The translations under genes were made by a program, and so were the position numbers. The notes below the pieces were generated by a model. The model was not told the DNA's origin. It searched no databases and was given only the letters and a program-made list of their open reading frames with translations. Source: an uncultured Bacilli bacterium (GTDB taxonomy: Bacteria > Bacillota_I > Bacilli_A > RF39 > UBA660). Taken from it: DNA of 64,000 nt. Numbering within the stretch: position 1 is the first letter of the stretch; the number at the start of each line of letters is the position of its first letter. The stretch is taken from NCBI GenBank assembly GCA_944371995.1, contig CALVYD010000002.1, forward strand, positions 1 to 64,000. The letters run 5' to 3'. This document shows, piece by piece, positions 16,019 through 42,404 of this stretch.

Positions 16019-16033
16019 CTATTTGGCTTTTTT
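16008..16033 (-). terminator. SDR gene terminator, symmetric
   Basis: AAAAAAGCCAA (16008-16018) and TTGGCTTTTTT (16023-16033) form a perfect 11-bp stem with a 4-nt loop that includes the SDR stop codon; able to work on both strands. Confidence 0.85.
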
Positions 16034-16771
16034 CTTTTGTATTCTATAGGCGCAACGTAATAAAAACTTGTCAGATGCAAATCTTCCAAAAAACTTTGCA
16101 CACTTCATTGTGAATCCAGGAATTATCAACATTTTTCCTTTCAACATCTCATCAATTGCGTATTTCGCAACATACGTACTTTTTAATGGCTTCACTCCAA
16201 ATTTTACTCCTGCTACTGCATTGAAATTAGTATCTACTGGTCCTGGACAAAGAACAGATACTTGAACATTTGATTTCTTTTTCTTTTGCTCATACCATAG
16301 AGCTTCTGATAATTGGTATACATAAGACTTTGTTGCATAATACGTACTCATCAATGGTCCCGGCTGAAATGCAGCAGAGGATGCAACATTTAGAATATAA
16401 CCAGAATTTCTTTTTTCCATATCTTTTAAAAATGCTTTTGTTAAGATGTGTACTGCCTTAATATTAGTATCAATCATAGTTAATTCTGTTTGCAGATCTG
16501 TCTTGGTAAATTCCCCAAACGCTCCAAATCCGGCATTGTTAATTAGGATATCAATGTTTTCTTTTTTTGTTAATACATATAATTCTTTTACTTTTTGTTC
16601 GTTGGATAAATCAGCAACAATGATTGTTACTTTTGTAGGGAGAGATTCTTGAATCTCTTCTAGTTTTTCTTTATTTCTTGCGACTAGAATAAGCTCATAT
16701 TTCTTGGTTGCTAAATATCTTGCCATATCTAGTCCTATTCCAGATGATGCTCCTGTAATTAGTGCTTTCAT
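16019..16771 (-). CDS. short-chain dehydrogenase/reductase (SDR)
   Basis: Classical SDR of 250 residues: NAD(P)-binding TGASSGIGLDMA (about residues 6-17), ILINNAGFGAFG, catalytic Ser in NVASSAAFQPGP and YxxxK in YYATKSYVYQ, then LCPGPVDTNF. The Arg at the end of strand 2 (LVARNKEKLEEI) suggests NADP preference. The group resembles DltE/YqjQ-type SDRs of unknown substrate. A basic C-terminus (AYRIQKKKAK) is normal for that group. It stands alone between two terminators. Confidence 0.9.
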   Translation of the reverse strand: MKALITGASSGIGLDMARYLATKKYELILVARNKEKLEEIQESLPTKVTIIVADLSNEQKVKELYVLTKKENIDILINNAGFGAFGEFTKTDLQTELTMIDTNIKAVHILTKAFLKDMEKRNSGYILNVASSAAFQPGPLMSTYYATKSYVYQLSEALWYEQKKKKSNVQVSVLCPGPVDTNFNAVAGVKFGVKPLKSTYVAKYAIDEMLKGKMLIIPGFTMKCAKFFGRFASDKFLLRCAYRIQKKKAK

Positions 16772-16825
16772 ACCGACACCTCTTTTACCTATCTTTTTCT
16801 CATTCTTATTATATAATAAAATGAC

Positions 16826-16855
16826 TGAAAAAAAAAGAATGTTGACATTCCTTTT
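16826..16855 (-). terminator. terminator separated from its gene by the repeat element
   Basis: On minus, AAAGGAATG (16854-16846, one G-U) pairs with CATTCTTTT (16841-16833) and runs into nine T. With copy 1 of the repeat removed it would lie about 45 bp after the 17306 gene, so it probably ended that transcript before insertion. Confidence 0.65.
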
Positions 16856-17287
16856 ACTATTTTCGTAGATTTTTATTTGGAATTCCGTTTTATAATAAAA
16901 AACTGAAATAAGTCTGATAGTAGTCTAATAAAATATAAAAATCAAGGGCGAATGAAATGAGTTTATAAAACCCTTGATTTTTACATTTTATTGAATATAA
17001 TACTTAATACAAACAAAGTTCATCTTTGTTTGTTATCTATAAATATACACATCTTACGACTATTCAATTACTCTAGTTATATTGAAAAAACTGAAATTAG
17101 TATGAAAAACGGAAATAACCTCCGTAATTTTGTCATGCAATAATTTAAATAATATTAGCTAATATTAAACAAAATTAAAAGACTTATTTCCGTTTTCTTA
17201 TTCTAAACCAGTAATAAGTCTTGTAAATTAAGTTTTATTTTTTAAAACTGCATTTAGTTTAAAAATTCACGTCCTTTTACTATTTTC
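16849..17287. mobile_element. dispersed non-coding element, copy 1
   Basis: A 411-bp core (16862-17272) is identical, as read by eye, to 41981-42391 in the same orientation. The copy is bounded by a 16-bp direct repeat, TCCTTTTACTATTTTC, at 16849-16864 and 17272-17287. The ends are imperfect inverted repeats (CGTAGATTTTTA inward from the left, CGTGAATTTTTA from the right, 10 of 12 matching). Inside are a 13-bp-stem hairpin with T-rich flanks (AAATCAAGGG / CCCTTGATTT), a second hairpin ACAAACAAAG-ttcat-CTTTGTTTGT, a 16-bp palindrome AATATTAGCTAATATT and several AAAC(T/G)GAAAT motifs. No open reading frame of note is present, so it is likely non-autonomous. It fills the gap between the SDR gene and the 17306 gene. 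Confidence 0.8.
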
Positions 17288-18373: not shown

Positions 18374-19324
18374 TTAGTCATCATCACGTAATACTAGACC
18401 CATGTCTCTGATTTTGTCTAATACTTCTTTTAGTGATTTTTTACCTAGATTACGTATTTTCATCATGTCTGATTCACTCTTATTAACAAGATCTTGTAAT
18501 GTATGAATTCCAGCTCTCTTTAAGCAGTTATATGCTCTTACAGAGAAATCTAAATCTTCAATAGATGTCTCTAGTGCTTTTACTTTTGGATCTTCTGTTT
18601 TTTCAATCATCATTCCACTTACATCTGCAATTGATGACAAATCAGTTAAAATTGTGAAATGTTCAATTAAAATTCTAGAAGCTAAAGCAATTGCTTCTTC
18701 TGGTTTGATTGAACCGTTTGTCCATACGTCTAAAATTAATTTATCATAACTTTCATCTTGTCCAACACGAGCACTTGCAACTTCATATGATACTCTTTCA
18801 ATAGGAGAATATAATGAGTCAATAGCAATAACTCCTGCTTTTTTAATATCATAAATCTTCTTGTTGTCTTCACTTCTTACATATCCACGACCATTTGTTA
18901 CAGTCATTTCCATGTTTAGAGTTGCTCCTTTTGATAATGTAGCGATAACTTTATCTTTGTTAATTACTTCAATATCAGCATCGTGTTCAATATCTCCAGC
19001 AGTAATTTCTCCTTCTTTACTAGTATTGATACGAACTACTTTTGGTTCATTTGAATGATTTTTAAATACTACACCTTTTAAGTTTAAGATGATAGTTGTA
19101 ACGTCTTCATAAACTCCTTCGATTGTTTGGAATTCATGTAACACTCCATCAATTTTAATACTACTAATAGCACTTCCTGGAAGAGATGATAACATTACTC
19201 TTCTTAATGCATTACCAATTGTAGTTCCGAATCCTCTTTCTAAAGGTTCTAATTCAAATCTACCATAGAAATTGCTTTCTACAGAATCTGTTATTTTGTA
19301 AATTGGTTTTTCAAATTGTAACAT
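18374..19324 (-). CDS. rpoA: RNA polymerase subunit alpha
   Basis: Alpha subunit that nucleates the core enzyme and contacts UP elements and activators. The N-terminal dimerisation domain shows [21 protein letters not shown] and [21 protein letters not shown]. The C-terminal domain shows [40 protein letters not shown] and [13 protein letters not shown]. At 316 residues it is a normal Bacillota size. It lies in the usual rpsM-rpsK-rpoA-rplQ order. Confidence 0.98.
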
Positions 19325-21952: not shown

Positions 21953-23227
21953 TTACCTTCTACTATATCCTCTCTTATAACTTCTGGTTAAAATACTTCC
22001 TTCCAATTGTTTATAAGTTTCAAGTGCTACACCTACGACGATTAATAGTCCTGTACCACCAATGGATACACTTGTAGGTAAGCTTGTCAATTTAGAAAAT
22101 AGAATTGGTAATCCTGCAATTACTACTAGGAAGGTTGCTCCCAGGATAGTAAGTCTTGATAATATTTTGCTTACATGTTTTTTGGTATCTTCTCCAGGTC
22201 TGATTCCAGGAATATATCCTCCATTTTCTTGTAAGTTCTTTGCAAACTCTTCTGGTTTTACTTGAATAAATGTATAGAAATATGCAAAGAAGAAAATTAA
22301 GATTACATAGATTAAGAATCCTACCGGAGTTGTATACGTTAAATATTTTTCTACAACTAAAGTAAATGTTTCATTTTTAATTACTTGTGCTAAAATTCCA
22401 GGAATTGCAAGTAAGCTTGATGCAAATATAACTGGAACAACACCAGCTGTGTTAATTTTGATTGGCATAAAACTTTGAGCTGAAGCACCATATGCACTTG
22501 TTGATTTATTGGCGTATTGAATTGGTATTCTTCGTTCAGATTCTTGAACAAAAATCATGCCGATGACTATTGCAAAGTATACTATTACAAATAGAATAAA
22601 CTTAATAATTCCTAAAGTAATTACTTGTGCTGTACCATCAAAAGCAATCAATCCAGTAAAGGCATCAATAAACATTTGAGGTAATGTTGCAATGATACCA
22701 GCCATGATAATTAGGCTGATTCCATTTCCTATTCCCTTTTGTGTTATTTGATCACCTAACCAAAGTAAGAATGCGGTACCAGCTGTTAAAACTGTTGCTA
22801 TATAAAGATATTCTACAACATCTCCTGATTTACCAATAAAGGCGAATGAGAATGCATATCCTTCAATAAAAGCAAAGATTATACCTACATATCTAGTAAT
22901 TTGATTTAATTTACGTCTTCCTGTTGCACCTTGGTTCTTTAGCTCTGTAAAATATGGAATAATATCCATTTGTAATAATTGCATGATGATTGATGCCGTA
23001 ATATATGGCATAACACCTAATGCAAAGATTGAGAAGTTTTTTAGTGCTCCACCACCAAGTGTGTTGATTAATTCTAAGAATCCTAAACTACTCGTTAAGT
23101 CTTCTGTTCCAGGAACACGTATTGAAATACCTAGTATGAAGATCATTAATGCCGCAAGAGTAAAGTAAATACGATGACGTAAATCTTTATTCGTTGAGGT
23201 AAATAATTGCTTCATAGTTTTAAACAT
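21953..23227 (-). CDS. secY: protein translocase subunit SecY
   Basis: Channel subunit of the Sec translocon in the cytoplasmic membrane. Ten hydrophobic segments can be followed. Characteristic stretches are RVPGTEDLTSSLGFLELINT, NFSIFALGVMPYITASIIMQ in TM2, GIGNGISLIIMAGI, QESERRIPIQYAN and the C-terminal SYKRGYSRR. At 424 residues it is standard. It is between rplO (1 bp gap) and adk, so translation is probably coupled. Confidence 0.98.
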   Translation of the reverse strand: MFKTMKQLFTSTNKDLRHRIYFTLAALMIFILGISIRVPGTEDLTSSLGFLELINTLGGGALKNFSIFALGVMPYITASIIMQLLQMDIIPYFTELKNQGATGRRKLNQITRYVGIIFAFIEGYAFSFAFIGKSGDVVEYLYIATVLTAGTAFLLWLGDQITQKGIGNGISLIIMAGIIATLPQMFIDAFTGLIAFDGTAQVITLGIIKFILFVIVYFAIVIGMIFVQESERRIPIQYANKSTSAYGASAQSFMPIKINTAGVVPVIFASSLLAIPGILAQVIKNETFTLVVEKYLTYTTPVGFLIYVILIFFFAYFYTFIQVKPEEFAKNLQENGGYIPGIRPGEDTKKHVSKILSRLTILGATFLVVIAGLPILFSKLTSLPTSVSIGGTGLLIVVGVALETYKQLEGSILTRSYKRGYSRR

Positions 23228-32715: not shown

Positions 32716-35700
32716 TTAACTATTTATTTTTTTATATATTACAACACTTCCACCTATCAATACTAATAAAAACCCGCTTAGTATGTACCAGTATATGCCC
32801 GTCCCACCAGTAAAAGGTAGATTAGGAATCTTTTGATTATCATAATATAATGTTAAAATACCATCTTGTTGATAAAATGTAACACCATCAATAGTTACTT
32901 TATCTAAACTTAAATTGTTTCCTTGAGTTCCTATTAGTATACTAGGAAATCCATTTGTAATAGTAATTTCCCATTTATCGCCAATTAAATATCCTAAGGG
33001 TGCGCTTGTTTCCACTAAGTAATATTCACCATCTGGAATTACTTTAACAGAATTGTTTTCTGTATCTTTCCAGTTTATAATGCCATTATTATTAGATATT
33101 CCAGTTAAAACAACCTTGCTATTTTCTTTGTCAAGTAAATCAAATGTAGCGTTTGATAATAACAAATGATCTTTGCTACTTCGTTTCACAATTTGCCAGT
33201 TTTGAATATTATTAATAGATGCATAAAATTGATTAGGATTTTTTGTATCTTGTTCTAAGTCACTATAATTAAGAGTATATGAAATATCATTAATTGTAAT
33301 AGAATTTCCTTCATCTATTCCGATATATTCTATATCATTTATTACAAATTCTCCTGTTTCGCCAGGATTTGCCGGGCGTAATTCTTTCACTGAATATCCA
33401 CTGCCAATCACTTCATTAAATAAACCACTCCAATTATTTGAAGAATTTAACACAACCGTTTGTTCTGCAACAGGGTTATTGTTTTGATATAATCCTACAT
33501 AAATATTAACACCCGGATTCTTATCAACTCCCGTCCATTCTTTGACAATATGAATATTTTGCTTATAAGAATTAGTAATAACTACCTTAGCGTCTGTGTC
33601 AAACAAAATTGTACCACTGGCACCTTCATTATAGGAAACATTTAAAGCAGAATCATCTTTTATTTTATAAGTAGGGCTTGCATAAATTCCTTCATTATTT
33701 TCCATATTATACTCTAGCTCTACGACCTTAAAGTCCGTTCCAGATAACAGTTGAGTAATCACTATAGTATCACCTACTAAAACATCAGAAATTTGACCAT
33801 TATCTGCTAACTTTCCACAAGCCTTTTTATCAGTTCCATTAGAAACTAAAGTGCCATCGTCATTATAGTAATAATATTCTCCATTTCGAATCAAATAATA
33901 TGACCCTTCATAATTTTGTAATATGCCATCTGCTCCTTCCAGCTGGATTAAAAACGAAAACGAATCATTAGATGATTGACCAGATTGCATTTTTTTATAG
34001 ATTCTCAATTCATTACTATTTCCTTCACTACATCTATTAGTAAAAACGATAATAGGGCGTTGATATACTGTTTCTTTAGATGAAGTTGCAGTTGTGGTAG
34101 AGTTTGTAGAATCAACACTATCACTTTCATTACTATCTGTTGCCTTCTCAGCATTGATATTAGTTTGATCAAATCGATTTTTATCAATATCTACTTCTTT
34201 TATATAATATTGTTGATTCATTTTTAAGCCACTGACCATAACAGCTTGTTCCGGTTTTAAATAGAATTTTTGTCCATCTTCCGACCATCGTAAACTATCA
34301 CCAGTATAAGTATTGTTTCCTTTCAATTCTGTAGTAAGTCCCAGGGTATTCAAGTTACTTTCAGTAACCTTGATATAATTACCTGTATATACTGGCATTT
34401 CATCACTTGAATCTGGTTCTTTTTCTTCTACATATAATTCAAAAGAAAAATCTTCATTGGCGTATATTTCCTTATTGGCATTGTCCAATTCTTTCTTAAT
34501 CATAATAGTTTCACTTGGAATTGGTAACAGATTAAATCTAATATGAAAATCAGATGCGCCTCCACCTCGTTCCATATAAAACATTTTCATAGTGTGACGA
34601 GTATAGTCAGTAAAGGTATCATCTTTAAAAAAATTATTAGCTCTTTCATCATCATAGTCTGTCCAAGCAGTACCATCAGGAAATATTTTAGCTTCCCAAA
34701 ACAAATCTTTTATAGTTGATTCATAAGGTGGGATTTTACCATTACTATCAGTTCCAAGTTCAACATACACCTTACCAGTCGCAAAATTAATATAACCAGA
34801 ATGAGCATCATGGATGCCACCACTATCCAAAATTAGAACGTCATCTATGAATATCCAGAAATCATCATCACCATTAAATTCATAAATCATATCAGAGCGA
34901 GTATCTTTATATACTGAAACACCATCTTCAGGCTGAAAAAAATCTATATTTAGTGTGACTGCAAAATTATAATTAACGTTTTCTCCTCCACCAGCTAAAT
35001 ATAAAGGTTCATTATAACGTTCGTCGTCTTCTTCTAATGGTTCTCCATTTTCGTCATATAAATTGGTATAAGGAGAAAATACACCATCCACAATATTATC
35101 ATATGGCATAAAATTACCTCGATAAAAGCTGTAATTTGGGTTGATATGGTACGGTGTGCCAAGAGCGTCATAGACAATGAAATTATTGTCACTTTTTAAA
35201 TAAGCATAATTTTCGAAACTACTATACTCGAAATAGCCAGTATCATTATATGTAGATTCTAAAAGAAGATGATTAACATTCACTGTATCATTATTATTAA
35301 ATAATGGTTCTAGACTATCACCCTCTACTCTACCACGTCCACCCTCACCAGAAAGGGTAGGATATCCCCTTTCATCTAAGGTTCTATTTAAAATTCCTTG
35401 CTCGACATTAAAGTAACCAATTCCATTAACACTGCTTACAAGTCCCCCTGCTCCCAATATTTCTTCTTGATCACTTTTTTCTAAATCAGTCATTGTCATA
35501 GTGATTCCGTATTCACTATTATCTAATGTGTTTATAGAATTTAGATTTTTTTCATAATATTTATATACAAAATAAATATCAATATAATTAATATCATTTT
35601 GTGATAAGCTATCACCTAATTCATAATACTTGTTATTGTAATATCCGTAAAAATAATAGTCTGCTTTATTATTATTAACATCATTCACACTGATTCGACT

Positions 35701-36585
35701 AGTTTTGTTATCTAAAGAAAAAGGTGCATTTTCACCACGCGTAAGATAACTGGTTTGATACTTATAAACACCATTATTGTCAGGTTTTTCTATATCCTCT
35801 GCATACTCATTTAAATAATAATCTCCACCATCATATTGATTGTTATATCCATCTTGCCATCTATCTGGTAATTTAGCTCCTTTATATTCATCGCTAATCT
35901 CTATAAAATTATTATTTTCATCCAAATATCCATAATGTGAAGTCAAATGAATTGGGTAATCACCATCTTCTTCACCAGTGCTAGTCCACACAACAGTATA
36001 TGCAGAAAAACTGTTTGATGTAAATTCTATTTTTTCTACTTCTGCGTTTTCCGTAGTCTCAACTTTTGCCTTCAAAGACATATCTTCTACTACAATTTCA
36101 TCTGTTCCACTTTTAACTTCTTTTAAATGTTTTAACGTGACATTAGCATCGTTTGATACTTCTGCAGGAATTGTAGATTCTTTGAAATCCATAACCACTT
36201 TTATGTATTCACTTGGTTCAACTTCTTTACCATCTATCAAAAAACTAATATCATAAGCTAAAAACCCTTCCACATGACTAGAAGTTTTTTTAGCATCATC
36301 AAGTAACTGCTTTTCAATCAAATCGTATTGCTCATTTATTTTTTTTGCTTGAAGTATTTCCTCCTCGTTCATGTCATTAGTAATCTCCACTTTTGTAAGG
36401 GGAGTAATAGATAACTCTGCATCTTCAGGGATAATGTCTGCGCCATCAGTATGTGCAGTAATAATAATATCCTCATCTTCATATTTATATTCAGAGCTCA
36501 CTCCTGCATAGGATATATTAAAGCAAAGAATTACTAACATGCATAAAAGAAATGATATAATCCATTTCTTTTTTATCCTAAACAT
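32716..36585 (-). CDS. LPXTG-anchored pilus tip adhesin-like protein with fibro-slime domain (1289 aa)
   Basis: Large surface protein. Residues 1-27 are a signal peptide. Around 540-620 is a fibro-slime/PA14-like domain with FNGDDDFWIFIDDVLILDSG followed by GIHDAHSGYINFATGKVYVE. From about 700 on there are several Cna-B type immunoglobulin-like repeats (one begins VKEWTGVDKNPGVNIYVGLY) and a SpaA-type domain near 1150-1215 with the isopeptide Glu in YYLVETSAPLGY. The sorting signal is LPFTG (about 1257), a hydrophobic span and the tail KKINS. In Bacillota pili such large proteins form the adhesive tip. It lies after the sortase, behind its own promoter (36668-36696), which is less usual than being first in the operon. 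Confidence 0.85.
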   Translation of the reverse strand: MFRIKKKWIISFLLCMLVILCFNISYAGVSSEYKYEDEDIIITAHTDGADIIPEDAELSITPLTKVEITNDMNEEEILQAKKINEQYDLIEKQLLDDAKKTSSHVEGFLAYDISFLIDGKEVEPSEYIKVVMDFKESTIPAEVSNDANVTLKHLKEVKSGTDEIVVEDMSLKAKVETTENAEVEKIEFTSNSFSAYTVVWTSTGEEDGDYPIHLTSHYGYLDENNNFIEISDEYKGAKLPDRWQDGYNNQYDGGDYYLNEYAEDIEKPDNNGVYKYQTSYLTRGENAPFSLDNKTSRISVNDVNNNKADYYFYGYYNNKYYELGDSLSQNDINYIDIYFVYKYYEKNLNSINTLDNSEYGITMTMTDLEKSDQEEILGAGGLVSSVNGIGYFNVEQGILNRTLDERGYPTLSGEGGRGRVEGDSLEPLFNNNDTVNVNHLLLESTYNDTGYFEYSSFENYAYLKSDNNFIVYDALGTPYHINPNYSFYRGNFMPYDNIVDGVFSPYTNLYDENGEPLEEDDERYNEPLYLAGGGENVNYNFAVTLNIDFFQPEDGVSVYKDTRSDMIYEFNGDDDFWIFIDDVLILDSGGIHDAHSGYINFATGKVYVELGTDSNGKIPPYESTIKDLFWEAKIFPDGTAWTDYDDERANNFFKDDTFTDYTRHTMKMFYMERGGGASDFHIRFNLLPIPSETIMIKKELDNANKEIYANEDFSFELYVEEKEPDSSDEMPVYTGNYIKVTESNLNTLGLTTELKGNNTYTGDSLRWSEDGQKFYLKPEQAVMVSGLKMNQQYYIKEVDIDKNRFDQTNINAEKATDSNESDSVDSTNSTTTATSSKETVYQRPIIVFTNRCSEGNSNELRIYKKMQSGQSSNDSFSFLIQLEGADGILQNYEGSYYLIRNGEYYYYNDDGTLVSNGTDKKACGKLADNGQISDVLVGDTIVITQLLSGTDFKVVELEYNMENNEGIYASPTYKIKDDSALNVSYNEGASGTILFDTDAKVVITNSYKQNIHIVKEWTGVDKNPGVNIYVGLYQNNNPVAEQTVVLNSSNNWSGLFNEVIGSGYSVKELRPANPGETGEFVINDIEYIGIDEGNSITINDISYTLNYSDLEQDTKNPNQFYASINNIQNWQIVKRSSKDHLLLSNATFDLLDKENSKVVLTGISNNNGIINWKDTENNSVKVIPDGEYYLVETSAPLGYLIGDKWEITITNGFPSILIGTQGNNLSLDKVTIDGVTFYQQDGILTLYYDNQKIPNLPFTGGTGIYWYILSGFLLVLIGGSVVIYKKINS

Positions 36586-38029: not shown

Positions 38030-39562
38030 CTAATTATTTTTTTTGGTGGATGATTCTTCTTTTTTTCTGCGGTAAATAAAGAAGAAATAGAAAGCTCCAA
38101 CAATAATTGCTAACCCTATTATTGTAAGGATAATTGTACCAGCACCACCAGTAACCGGTAATAAACCAACAGCTGCATTAGCAATGTCCAGTTCATAATA
38201 ACCATCATTATTAGTATCTTGAAGTTGATTTCCACTTGCCTGATTTGGTCCGATTGTAACCGTAATGGGATCCATTAATAACTGATATCCAGTAGGTGCT
38301 GAGGTTTCTTTTATATAATATGTACCTGAAGCTAAACCTTTAGTTTTGACATATCCATCAGTAGCCGTTGTAACAGTATCCACTAAGTTATCAGAAGTCA
38401 TAGAAATATCGCTATAAATTTCAAAGGTTGCTCCTTCTAATGGAGTATTACCTTGTGCTGCATGTTTAAATATTTGGATACCATATATATAAATTGGAAC
38501 TTCTTTATCACCTTCACCACCAGCATCAGTAGCAGTATTATGAGTACCAGTACCATACGGATCATTAGAATACTCTAAACTAGCTTTGTTTACATTACCA
38601 TTTCCACCAATAATAGCATTATTATTAACAGTGGCTTTATATTCAATTCTAATTAAATTAGAAGTTACATTGTCTACCATAAATGTAATTGTTAGTGTTT
38701 TTCCACTAATTTTTGCAATCGCAACAGTTTTTCCATCATTTGTAAATGTACCATTGTTATTTGTTAAAGCCGTAATACCATCCGTAATCTTAATACTTGT
38801 AACTGCTTCAAAATCTAATCCTTCAGAAATTGTGTCTGTAATTACATATGTTTTGTTTATAGCATTCGTAGGATAAAGTGGTACCGTGGCTTTAATTACA
38901 TATGGAACCACATCTCCTATACCATAAGAACCAGAAGATGCCTCTTTATTACCTATGGCTTTTGTGATTCCGGCATCCTCTACTTTAGCAACAATACTTT
39001 CATTATTAATTTCCCACGCATTTCCATTAGCTGTATAATCTAAATTACCAACCATAACTGCGTAAACTCTTAATGTTTTAGTAGGTAAAACTAAGTAAGC
39101 TCCAGCATCTAAAGTCTGATATGCTGTAGTCCCTGATATACTCATAGCAGTACCCTTTACATTATGTGATTTAATATAAGAAGCATAACCGCTAGCAAGT
39201 GTATCTAAATTTGAACTAGTTGTAACCTCTCCGCTTTCTATATCACCACTAGTTAAATTAAAATAATCTTCAATACTAAGATTATTATTTATTGAATTTA
39301 AATATGCTTTAAAATCGTTAGTAAACTCATATGAAATTACATTAGTGTTTATATTGTAAAATGCATCTAATATTTTATAGGCACTTAGTTGATCACCAGC
39401 ATCAATATCAGAAACTGTTAGGTTAGCCTTTTCAGTAATTATTTTACTTATACCATCACTGCTTGTTGTGCTGCCCGTTGTAATTGCTGCATGAACATTT
39501 AAGATTCCTACAAAAGCAATTATAGTCAGGATAATCAAAAATACCTTATTTCTTTTTTTCAT
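38030..39562 (-). CDS. major pilin, SpaA-type isopeptide-forming subunit
   Basis: Backbone pilin of 510 residues. Signal peptide (about 1-25, ending NVHAA), several Ig-like domains, a SpaA domain near the end with the isopeptide Glu in TYYIKETSAPTGYQLL, and the sorting signal LPVTG followed by a hydrophobic span and KKEESSTKKNN. A W-x9-K segment (W193 to K203, WEINNESIVAK) resembles the pilin motif that supplies the cross-linking Lys; another candidate is the Lys after YPTNAIN at 230-237. It overlaps the minor pilin gene by 17 bp and is followed by the sortase. Confidence 0.9.
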   Translation of the reverse strand: MKKRNKVFLIILTIIAFVGILNVHAAITTGSTTSSDGISKIITEKANLTVSDIDAGDQLSAYKILDAFYNINTNVISYEFTNDFKAYLNSINNNLSIEDYFNLTSGDIESGEVTTSSNLDTLASGYASYIKSHNVKGTAMSISGTTAYQTLDAGAYLVLPTKTLRVYAVMVGNLDYTANGNAWEINNESIVAKVEDAGITKAIGNKEASSGSYGIGDVVPYVIKATVPLYPTNAINKTYVITDTISEGLDFEAVTSIKITDGITALTNNNGTFTNDGKTVAIAKISGKTLTITFMVDNVTSNLIRIEYKATVNNNAIIGGNGNVNKASLEYSNDPYGTGTHNTATDAGGEGDKEVPIYIYGIQIFKHAAQGNTPLEGATFEIYSDISMTSDNLVDTVTTATDGYVKTKGLASGTYYIKETSAPTGYQLLMDPITVTIGPNQASGNQLQDTNNDGYYELDIANAAVGLLPVTGGAGTIILTIIGLAIIVGAFYFFFIYRRKKEESSTKKNN

Positions 39563-41345: not shown

Positions 41346-41957
41346 TTAGCTTGCAGATGCAACTTTTTTTGTACTATTTAATGTTTTTACTTTTCGATAC
41401 TGTTTTGGTATATATTCAATTGATGGTTCAAACTTACAAGAGTCATTTGAGAAAAATAAAGTATAATTATCTAAAGTTAAGTCATTTTGTAAGTCTGTTT
41501 GTAATTCCTTTATTTTACCAGTTTTGTCATAAATAATTGTTCCCTGTCTTACAATAAATTCCCAGGGATGTTCTCCTCTATCTTGAAATCTTCCTTCTAG
41601 GCTATAATACCAGTCTGGCTTATTCATTATGCTAATATTCATACCAGTCTGTGATAAAATTTCCATGATTTCTGGCTTTGTTAATTCGACTGGATCAAAA
41701 TTTTTATCATTATAAATAAACAATAATTCTACTTCTGGTTTACTAGAGTCGATTTGAGAAAAATCTCTTCCCATGTAGACAATACCTTCTAAAAACTTAT
41801 TTTGATGATTGTCTGACAATATTTCGTCAATTTTATTACTGATTAGTTCATTCATCCTCTCTATACTTTTTTCATTCCTATATACCGTTCTTAACTCTTC
41901 CATACTACTATTTCCTTCCCCTATTTTCATTGTACCTTTCAAAACATGGTTCGTCAA
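41346..41957 (-). CDS. hypothetical protein, 203 aa, paralogue of the preceding one
   Basis: Soluble protein of unknown function. N-terminal helix (SMEELRTVYRNEKSIERMNE) with LEGIVYMGRDFSQIDSS and EVELLFIYNDKNFDPVEL, then RQGTIIYDKTGKIKELQTDL near the C-terminus, and a basic Ser/Lys tail. The order of these blocks resembles a degenerate nucleotidyltransferase fold (helix-GS region-strand-lid) but no catalytic Asp pair is kept. It is related to the 149-aa product. Its start is 11 bp from the left boundary repeat of element copy 2. Confidence 0.6.
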   Translation of the reverse strand: MTNHVLKGTMKIGEGNSSMEELRTVYRNEKSIERMNELISNKIDEILSDNHQNKFLEGIVYMGRDFSQIDSSKPEVELLFIYNDKNFDPVELTKPEIMEILSQTGMNISIMNKPDWYYSLEGRFQDRGEHPWEFIVRQGTIIYDKTGKIKELQTDLQNDLTLDNYTLFFSNDSCKFEPSIEYIPKQYRKVKTLNSTKKVASAS

Positions 41958-41968
41958 TCAAATTTACT

Positions 41969-42404
41969 TTATTTTACTATTTCGTAGATTTTTATTTGGA
42001 ATTCCGTTTTATAATAAAAAACTGAAATAAGTCTGATAGTAGTCTAATAAAATATAAAAATCAAGGGCGAATGAAATGAGTTTATAAAACCCTTGATTTT
42101 TACATTTTATTGAATATAATACTTAATACAAACAAAGTTCATCTTTGTTTGTTATCTATAAATATACACATCTTACGACTATTCAATTACTCTAGTTATA
42201 TTGAAAAAACTGAAATTAGTATGAAAAACGGAAATAACCTCCGTAATTTTGTCATGCAATAATTTAAATAATATTAGCTAATATTAAACAAAATTAAAAG
42301 ACTTATTTCCGTTTTCTTATTCTAAACCAGTAATAAGTCTTGTAAATTAAGTTTTATTTTTTAAAACTGCATTTAGTTTAAAAATTCACGTTATTTTACT
42401 ATTT
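41969..42404. mobile_element. dispersed non-coding element, copy 2
   Basis: Same 411-bp core as 16862-17272, here 41981-42391, in the same orientation. The direct repeat is TTATTTTACTATTT (41969-41982 and 42391-42404), 14 bp and different from copy 1 at its outer bases, which supports target duplication. The right repeat contains the dinB stop codon, so the element sits flush with the dinB 3' end and can provide its terminator through the internal AAATCAAGGG/CCCTTGATTT hairpin. Confidence 0.8.

Follow-up and report, generated by a model that had tools for sequence, protein, structure and literature searches.

The window analysed here, a stretch of 64,000 nucleotides from an uncultured Bacilli bacterium, contains two copies of a 408-bp gene-less element that, from its sequence, is a MITE, a non-autonomous derivative of an insertion sequence (IS) of the IS30 family. 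The MITE and its IS insert in one orientation, at about -48/-62 of predicted sigma-A promoters, leaving the promoter intact. Their target is a position relative to the predicted promoter, not a local sequence. The best overall explanation, which we hold with considerable confidence, is that an IS30-derived MITE is moved in trans and inserts in one orientation at promoters, with RNA polymerase as its probable guide. Long duplications are already known in IS30-type elements, as is promoter-registered insertion in Mutator-like families. No report of promoter-registered insertion in IS30 was found in the open-access literature, with most subscription papers and ISfinder lying outside the search. 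A promoter register in this widespread family points to convergence on RNA polymerase as a landing platform, and how the transposase finds the promoter is a directly testable question. Many homologues are available with and without the promoter rule, which allows the determinant to be mapped, and the insertion sites provide a natural promoter map in uncultured bacteria.

The two window copies, located at 16864-17271 (copy 1) and 41983-42390 (copy 2) on the forward strand, are base-for-base identical and lie in the same orientation, offset by 25,119 bp. The original prediction had described a non-coding element of 411 bp occurring twice in identical form; the identity and the offset stand, while the exact borders give 408 bp. 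The genome, a MAG of 1.72 Mb in 71 contigs, holds four essentially identical copies, the other two being situated on contigs C24 (at 21856) and C34 (at 3948), in agreement with the recent movement that had been proposed. The left part of the MITE (positions 1-67; 16864-16930 in copy 1, 67 bp) is 100% identical to the left end of an autonomous IS (L053, positions 290-356), and the right part (positions 222-408; 17085-17271 in copy 1) matches the right end of the IS at 87%, with a central module in between. The terminal inverted repeats, CGTAGATTTTTA / CGTGAATTTTTA, are real and imperfect, as had been noticed before, and the entire MITE has a strong fold on both strands. The element thus combines the properties of a MITE, i.e., a lack of coding capacity, the ends of an autonomous element, its own target duplication and several copies. 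A search of plasmid and phage collections gave no DNA match.

The central module is a double hairpin that derives from neither IS end. In the window it is present at 16928-17047 and 42047-42166, and consists of AAATCAAGGGCGAACGAAGTGAGTTCAT..ACCCTTGATTT followed by AAACAAAGTTCACCTTTGTTTGTTATC, a conserved arrangement. Beyond the window it occurs at L031, L032, L034-L036, L038, L041, L044 and L059; in relatives it is found outside the element, including after genes. Related forms are present in the leaders of other IS (L226, L228, L236, L246). Several positions in the stems have changed on both sides, AAATC/GATTT becoming AAAGC/GCTTT and CAAAC/GTTTG becoming CAAAT/ATTTG. An Rfam search returned nothing above chance and no match for the module, which may be a pair of terminators or the leader RNA of an IS.

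Each copy has its own direct repeat. Copy 1 is flanked by the 15-bp TCCTTTTACTATTTT at 16849-16863 and 17272-17286, where a C at both 16864 and 17287 makes the repeat appear 16 bp long, and copy 2 by the 14-bp TTATTTTACTATTT at 41969-41982 and 42391-42404. The copy on C24 has TTTTCCTAAAATAAT on both sides and the copy on C34 has TTGCTACTTATTTGC. For the empty-site search, the flanks were joined with one repeat retained and compared with 16 genomes of the genus. At the site of copy 1, the element is missing from G005 (99% identity across the full 978 nt) and G011 (92%), and at that of copy 2 from G011 (99% over 1129 nt), G005 (90%) and G014 (87%). These empty sites have one repeat only and no element; therefore, insertion with target duplication is shown within the genus. 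This bears out the target-site duplication claimed by the original prediction, which had named the finding of empty sites as a check of mobility. A shorter version of the element, with a 14-bp repeat, is present in another species of the genus (G007), and its retained parts are 99.6-100% identical.

The 11-bp core TTTTACTATTT is common to the repeats of both window copies and had been taken as a sign of strong target preference. This does not hold, as the core is absent from the other two copies and, at one mismatch, occurs 25 times in the window compared to 18.7 expected, which is near chance level. As a fixed target, TTTTACTATTT was rejected because the other two copies have different repeats; its sharing is a coincidence of two sites. 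A composite transposon of 25 kb between the copies was also rejected, since each copy has its own duplication.

In the same genome, six contig ends lie about 70 bp into a longer relative of the MITE, where the assembly breaks. Two pairs of contig ends join by 15-bp duplications, TTTTTAGACGAAAAT and AAAAATTCATTCCTA, so the longer element is multi-copy; it probably collapsed in the assembly of this MAG, the contigs breaking inside the autonomous copy. The full IS is found in relatives, with public entries titled uncultured Bacilli bacterium and similar. It measures 1.43-1.54 kb and has the same ends as the MITE around one ORF of 376-383 aa. The mobilisation in trans that had been suggested for the gene-less element is supported by these ends, which it shares with a transposase-encoding IS, the kind of autonomous relative that the original prediction had proposed to look for.

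The ORF matches the NCBIfam IS30 transposase model at 8.5e-25, over the cut-off. With NF033563, L053 scores 88 bits (cut-off 80) and L054 scores 76 bits, just under it. HTH_38, the N-terminal HTH, matches at 2.8e-13. Residues D214, D276 and E315 are invariant in 14 relatives and, by their likeness to IS30, are assigned as the putative catalytic D-D-E. Pfam and NCBIfam identified only HTH_38 and IS30 in the transposase, plus a weak match to IS481, and neither found a Mutator-like transposase in the ORF. The original prediction could name no family for these ends; the autonomous relatives encode DDE transposases of the IS30 family. A PDB sequence search gave no match, and the AlphaFold model of the transposase (pLDDT 43) is too poor for use. 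Eight IS copies have duplications of 13-15 bp, as does the MITE, where 2-3 bp is typical of IS30. This length is not fatal to membership, as IS1630, from the same family, makes duplications of 16-26 bp. Head-to-tail tandem copies of IS or MITE with one duplication between them are present in L076 (near 2400 and 3853) and L115 (near 580). They fit repeated insertion at a promoter that is left intact each time, in the same register.

To define the target, left ends were taken from all loci, similar flanks were removed and four rows were dropped (one N-run, one spurious match and two tandem copies), which left 71 distinct sites. The multi-copy locus of G456, a longer repeat with ends that could not be placed, was left out of the analysis. 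Promoters, which read away from the left end, were predicted from sequence, a -10 box being a hexamer with at least 5/6 matches to TATAAT. Such a box starts at nt 49-51 outside the left end in 61 of the 71 junctions, compared to a mean of 2.1 sites per position elsewhere (of 71; binomial tail ~1e-54). TTG starts at nt 26-29 in 46/71 against a background of 4.5, and the -35 box is usually located 23 nt before the -10 box. The spacer is 17 nt in 31 of the 41 sites that have both boxes with at least 4/6 matches, and few sites in the left-end set have another spacer. An extended -10 is present in 33 junctions. When both boxes are scored together, 55/71 sites are in register, compared to 8.7 (at most 14) in shuffles. 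The 59 right flanks have no enrichment at any position; therefore, the orientation is fixed. Two of the 71 junctions, L024 and L028, have no -10-like hexamer in register. The register is kept by a relative with 47% transposase identity (L111, -10 at nt 50).

At 16 sites, the spacing between the -10 box and the duplication edge nearer to the promoter was determined; it amounts to 34-35 nt irrespective of duplication length (13, 14 or 15 bp). In three sites the scan took another hexamer (L006, L074, L028); L006 and L074 read 35 nt by eye and L028 is an exception. As this spacing does not depend on the length of the duplication, it is the promoter-side cut that is anchored, near -48, with the far cut shifting around -62. 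Both positions lie in the UP-element region of a promoter.

Both window copies have a predicted promoter on the reverse strand in the scan of their left flanks. At copy 1, the -10 box TATAAT (16808-16813) is preceded, with a 17-nt spacer, by the weak TTTTTT at the -35 position (16831-16836), and the gene behind it (16019-16771, reverse strand) encodes a short-chain dehydrogenase of Pfam family adh_short. At copy 2, the -35 box TTGACG (41952-41957) and the -10 box TACAAT (41929-41934) are also 17 nt apart. The gene behind this promoter (41346-41903, reverse strand) has no Pfam family, and its start, read from the sequence, is probably the ATG at 41903 after GGGGAAGG. This ATG is preferred because the TTG at 41957, which a mechanical call takes as the start (ORF 41346-41957), belongs to the -35 box. 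Pilin-like SpaA surface proteins are encoded between the MITE copies, at 32719-36585 and 38033-39562, the second with an LPXTG anchor; the window also contains rpoA (18377-19324) and secY (21956-23227).

In the proposed mechanism, an IS30-family DDE transposase, supplied in trans, would bind both ends of the MITE and join them to the target, the cuts being staggered by 13-15 bp and so producing the duplication. The left end faces the predicted sigma-A promoter: the cut on the promoter side falls at about -48, 34-35 nt ahead of the -10 box, and the other at about -62, within the UP-element/alpha-CTD region. As the promoter is left whole and the host gene reads away from the element, insertion should carry little cost. 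The kinship of MITE and IS, the duplications, the empty sites and the constant distance and orientation are shown by the sequences. The transposase would reach its site by contact with promoter-bound RNA polymerase, through sigma region 4 or the alpha C-terminal domain. We infer that such guidance is the likeliest mechanism, and a Cys-knuckle between the HTH and the catalytic domain may be involved in finding the site. For TnGBS, the polymerase was proposed as guide by Guerillot et al., by analogy with yeast Ty3 (PMC3942029).

Alternatively, the transposase could read the promoter DNA directly with its HTH or Cys-knuckle, recognizing the -10 and -35 boxes or the bendability of the promoter, without RNA polymerase. 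Both boxes are indeed visible at the sites at a fixed distance, and an insertion from a sister clade (L196) is situated within a coding frame, at sequence that resembles a promoter. However, a footprint of about 60 bp read by one transposase that tolerates weak -35 boxes such as TTTTTT and TTGCTT would be unusual. Moreover, good conservation is limited to the TTG and TA...T, in line with what the polymerase itself tolerates, and it was the polymerase that was proposed as guide in the published analogues (PMC3942029). Direct reading is therefore considered unlikely, although it deserves serious attention.

The remaining explanations have far less in their favor. It is very improbable that insertion occurs at random in AT-rich intergenic DNA, with selection sparing the harmless events upstream of promoters: the insertions are intergenic and the promoters whole, but selection cannot yield a 3-nt window and one orientation in 61/71 sites, nor a distance to the promoter-side cut that is independent of duplication length. 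Site-specific recombination at TTTTACTATTT, with the repeats as att-like cores, had been offered by the original prediction as another source of the long repeats, and the core common to the two window copies is what speaks for it. This reading is unneeded and has almost no chance of being correct, as the 13-15 bp repeats around the other copies and the IS relatives are unrelated, the partner gene encodes a DDE transposase and the repeat is single in empty sites. Equally remote is a casposon-like element integrated by a Cas1 casposase. Cas1 casposase duplicates 14-15 bp, and duplication length alone agrees with this reading, but the autonomous relatives encode an IS30 DDE transposase and lack Cas1, and the sole Cas1 detected in the genome lies on a different contig (C18). 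The casposon and integrase readings were dropped on finding full elements with an IS30 transposase.

The MITE and its IS can be compared with several known systems. The type element, IS30 of E. coli, similarly encodes a transposase with an HTH followed by D-D-E and has imperfect terminal inverted repeats; the IS described here is 1.4-1.5 kb likewise. E. coli IS30 makes 2-bp duplications and targets near-palindromic hot spots or its own ends (PMC9333248), whereas the duplications here are 13-15 bp and the target is a predicted promoter. The transposase also has a Cys-knuckle, which is absent from the short IS30 transposases that were examined. IS1630 of Mycoplasma fermentans shares the IS30-type transposase and the long target duplications. 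Going by the title of Calcutt's 1999 report, it reportedly duplicates inverted repeats of variable length. In strain M64, its duplications are 16, 23, 25 and 26 bp (PMC3317919); those of the present element are 13-15 bp, at a site set by the promoter.

In the Mutator superfamily, TnGBS/ISLre2 and part of ISKra4 insert in an oriented way upstream of promoters at a fixed distance, described as a "unique insertion specificity" (PMC3942029). The present element resembles TnGBS and ISLre2 in its oriented insertion at a fixed distance upstream of predicted sigma-A promoters (61/71 sites), but its transposase family is unrelated to that of TnGBS, ISLre2 and ISKra4. Furthermore, TnGBS/ISLre2 turn their right end to the promoter, at 15-17 bp from the -35 box, while here the left end does so, at 26-27 bp from the -35 box, and the duplication is longer. 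Like other bacterial MITEs, the element is short and gene-less, has the ends of an autonomous IS and a target duplication, and is probably moved in trans; it differs from them in the promoter register inherited from its parent IS. IS30 goes unmentioned in a 2024 review of MITEs in prokaryotes (PMC10969869).

Canonical short IS30 served as a control. They have no positional -10 box (at most 2/18), and A6/T6 runs lie near the left end in 13/18 of them, compared to 18/71 in the group of the window element. These elements (L202-L220, from related complete genomes) often adjoin A/T runs that resemble intrinsic terminators and have repeats of about 3-5 bp. They follow a different target rule from the clade of the window. 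Insertion at terminator hairpins, an idea suggested by IS1630, was rejected for the window element: the sites of copies 1 and 4 are hairpin-like, but the larger set consists of predicted promoters.

A CxxC...C knuckle is common to the longer IS30 transposases (~370-450 aa), and the short ones examined do not have it. The longer transposases and the partner of the window element form one clade in a quick tree (SH-aLRT 100), in which long branches call for caution. Some sister subfamilies have duplications of 12-15 bp next to good predicted promoters at other distances, each measured at two to four sites. In L197 and L191, about 26-27 nt separate the cut from the start of the -10 box, and L223 and L224 are consistent with this if the left end is taken as reference. 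The separation is about 37 nt in L236 and L251, and 47 nt in L231, L240 and L241, with steps close to one helical turn. In L187, L190, L228 and L230, from the same clade, there is no clear register. As a lead, sister subfamilies may target predicted promoters one helical turn nearer or farther. Tentatively, with the odds somewhat against it, the Cys-knuckle IS30 clade could be a third, independently evolved DDE lineage guided to sigma-A promoters via RNA polymerase. Its subfamilies would then cut on different helical turns, leaving about 26, 36 or 47 nt between the promoter-side cut and the start of the -10 box, and its MITEs would inherit the rule.

Two further observations concern related IS30 elements. 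In L196, on contig C23 of the same genome, an IS30 with a 411-aa frame is inserted in a coding frame by a cryptic GATAAT in its left flank, and promoter-like DNA inside genes may thus be hit as well. Another IS30 subfamily (L190, L225, L226, L228) is situated by several promoters with runs of 9-10 G between the -35 and -10 boxes, e.g., TTGACAAATTTTGTCGGGGGGGGGGTATAAT near L225, which could be phase-variable spacers.
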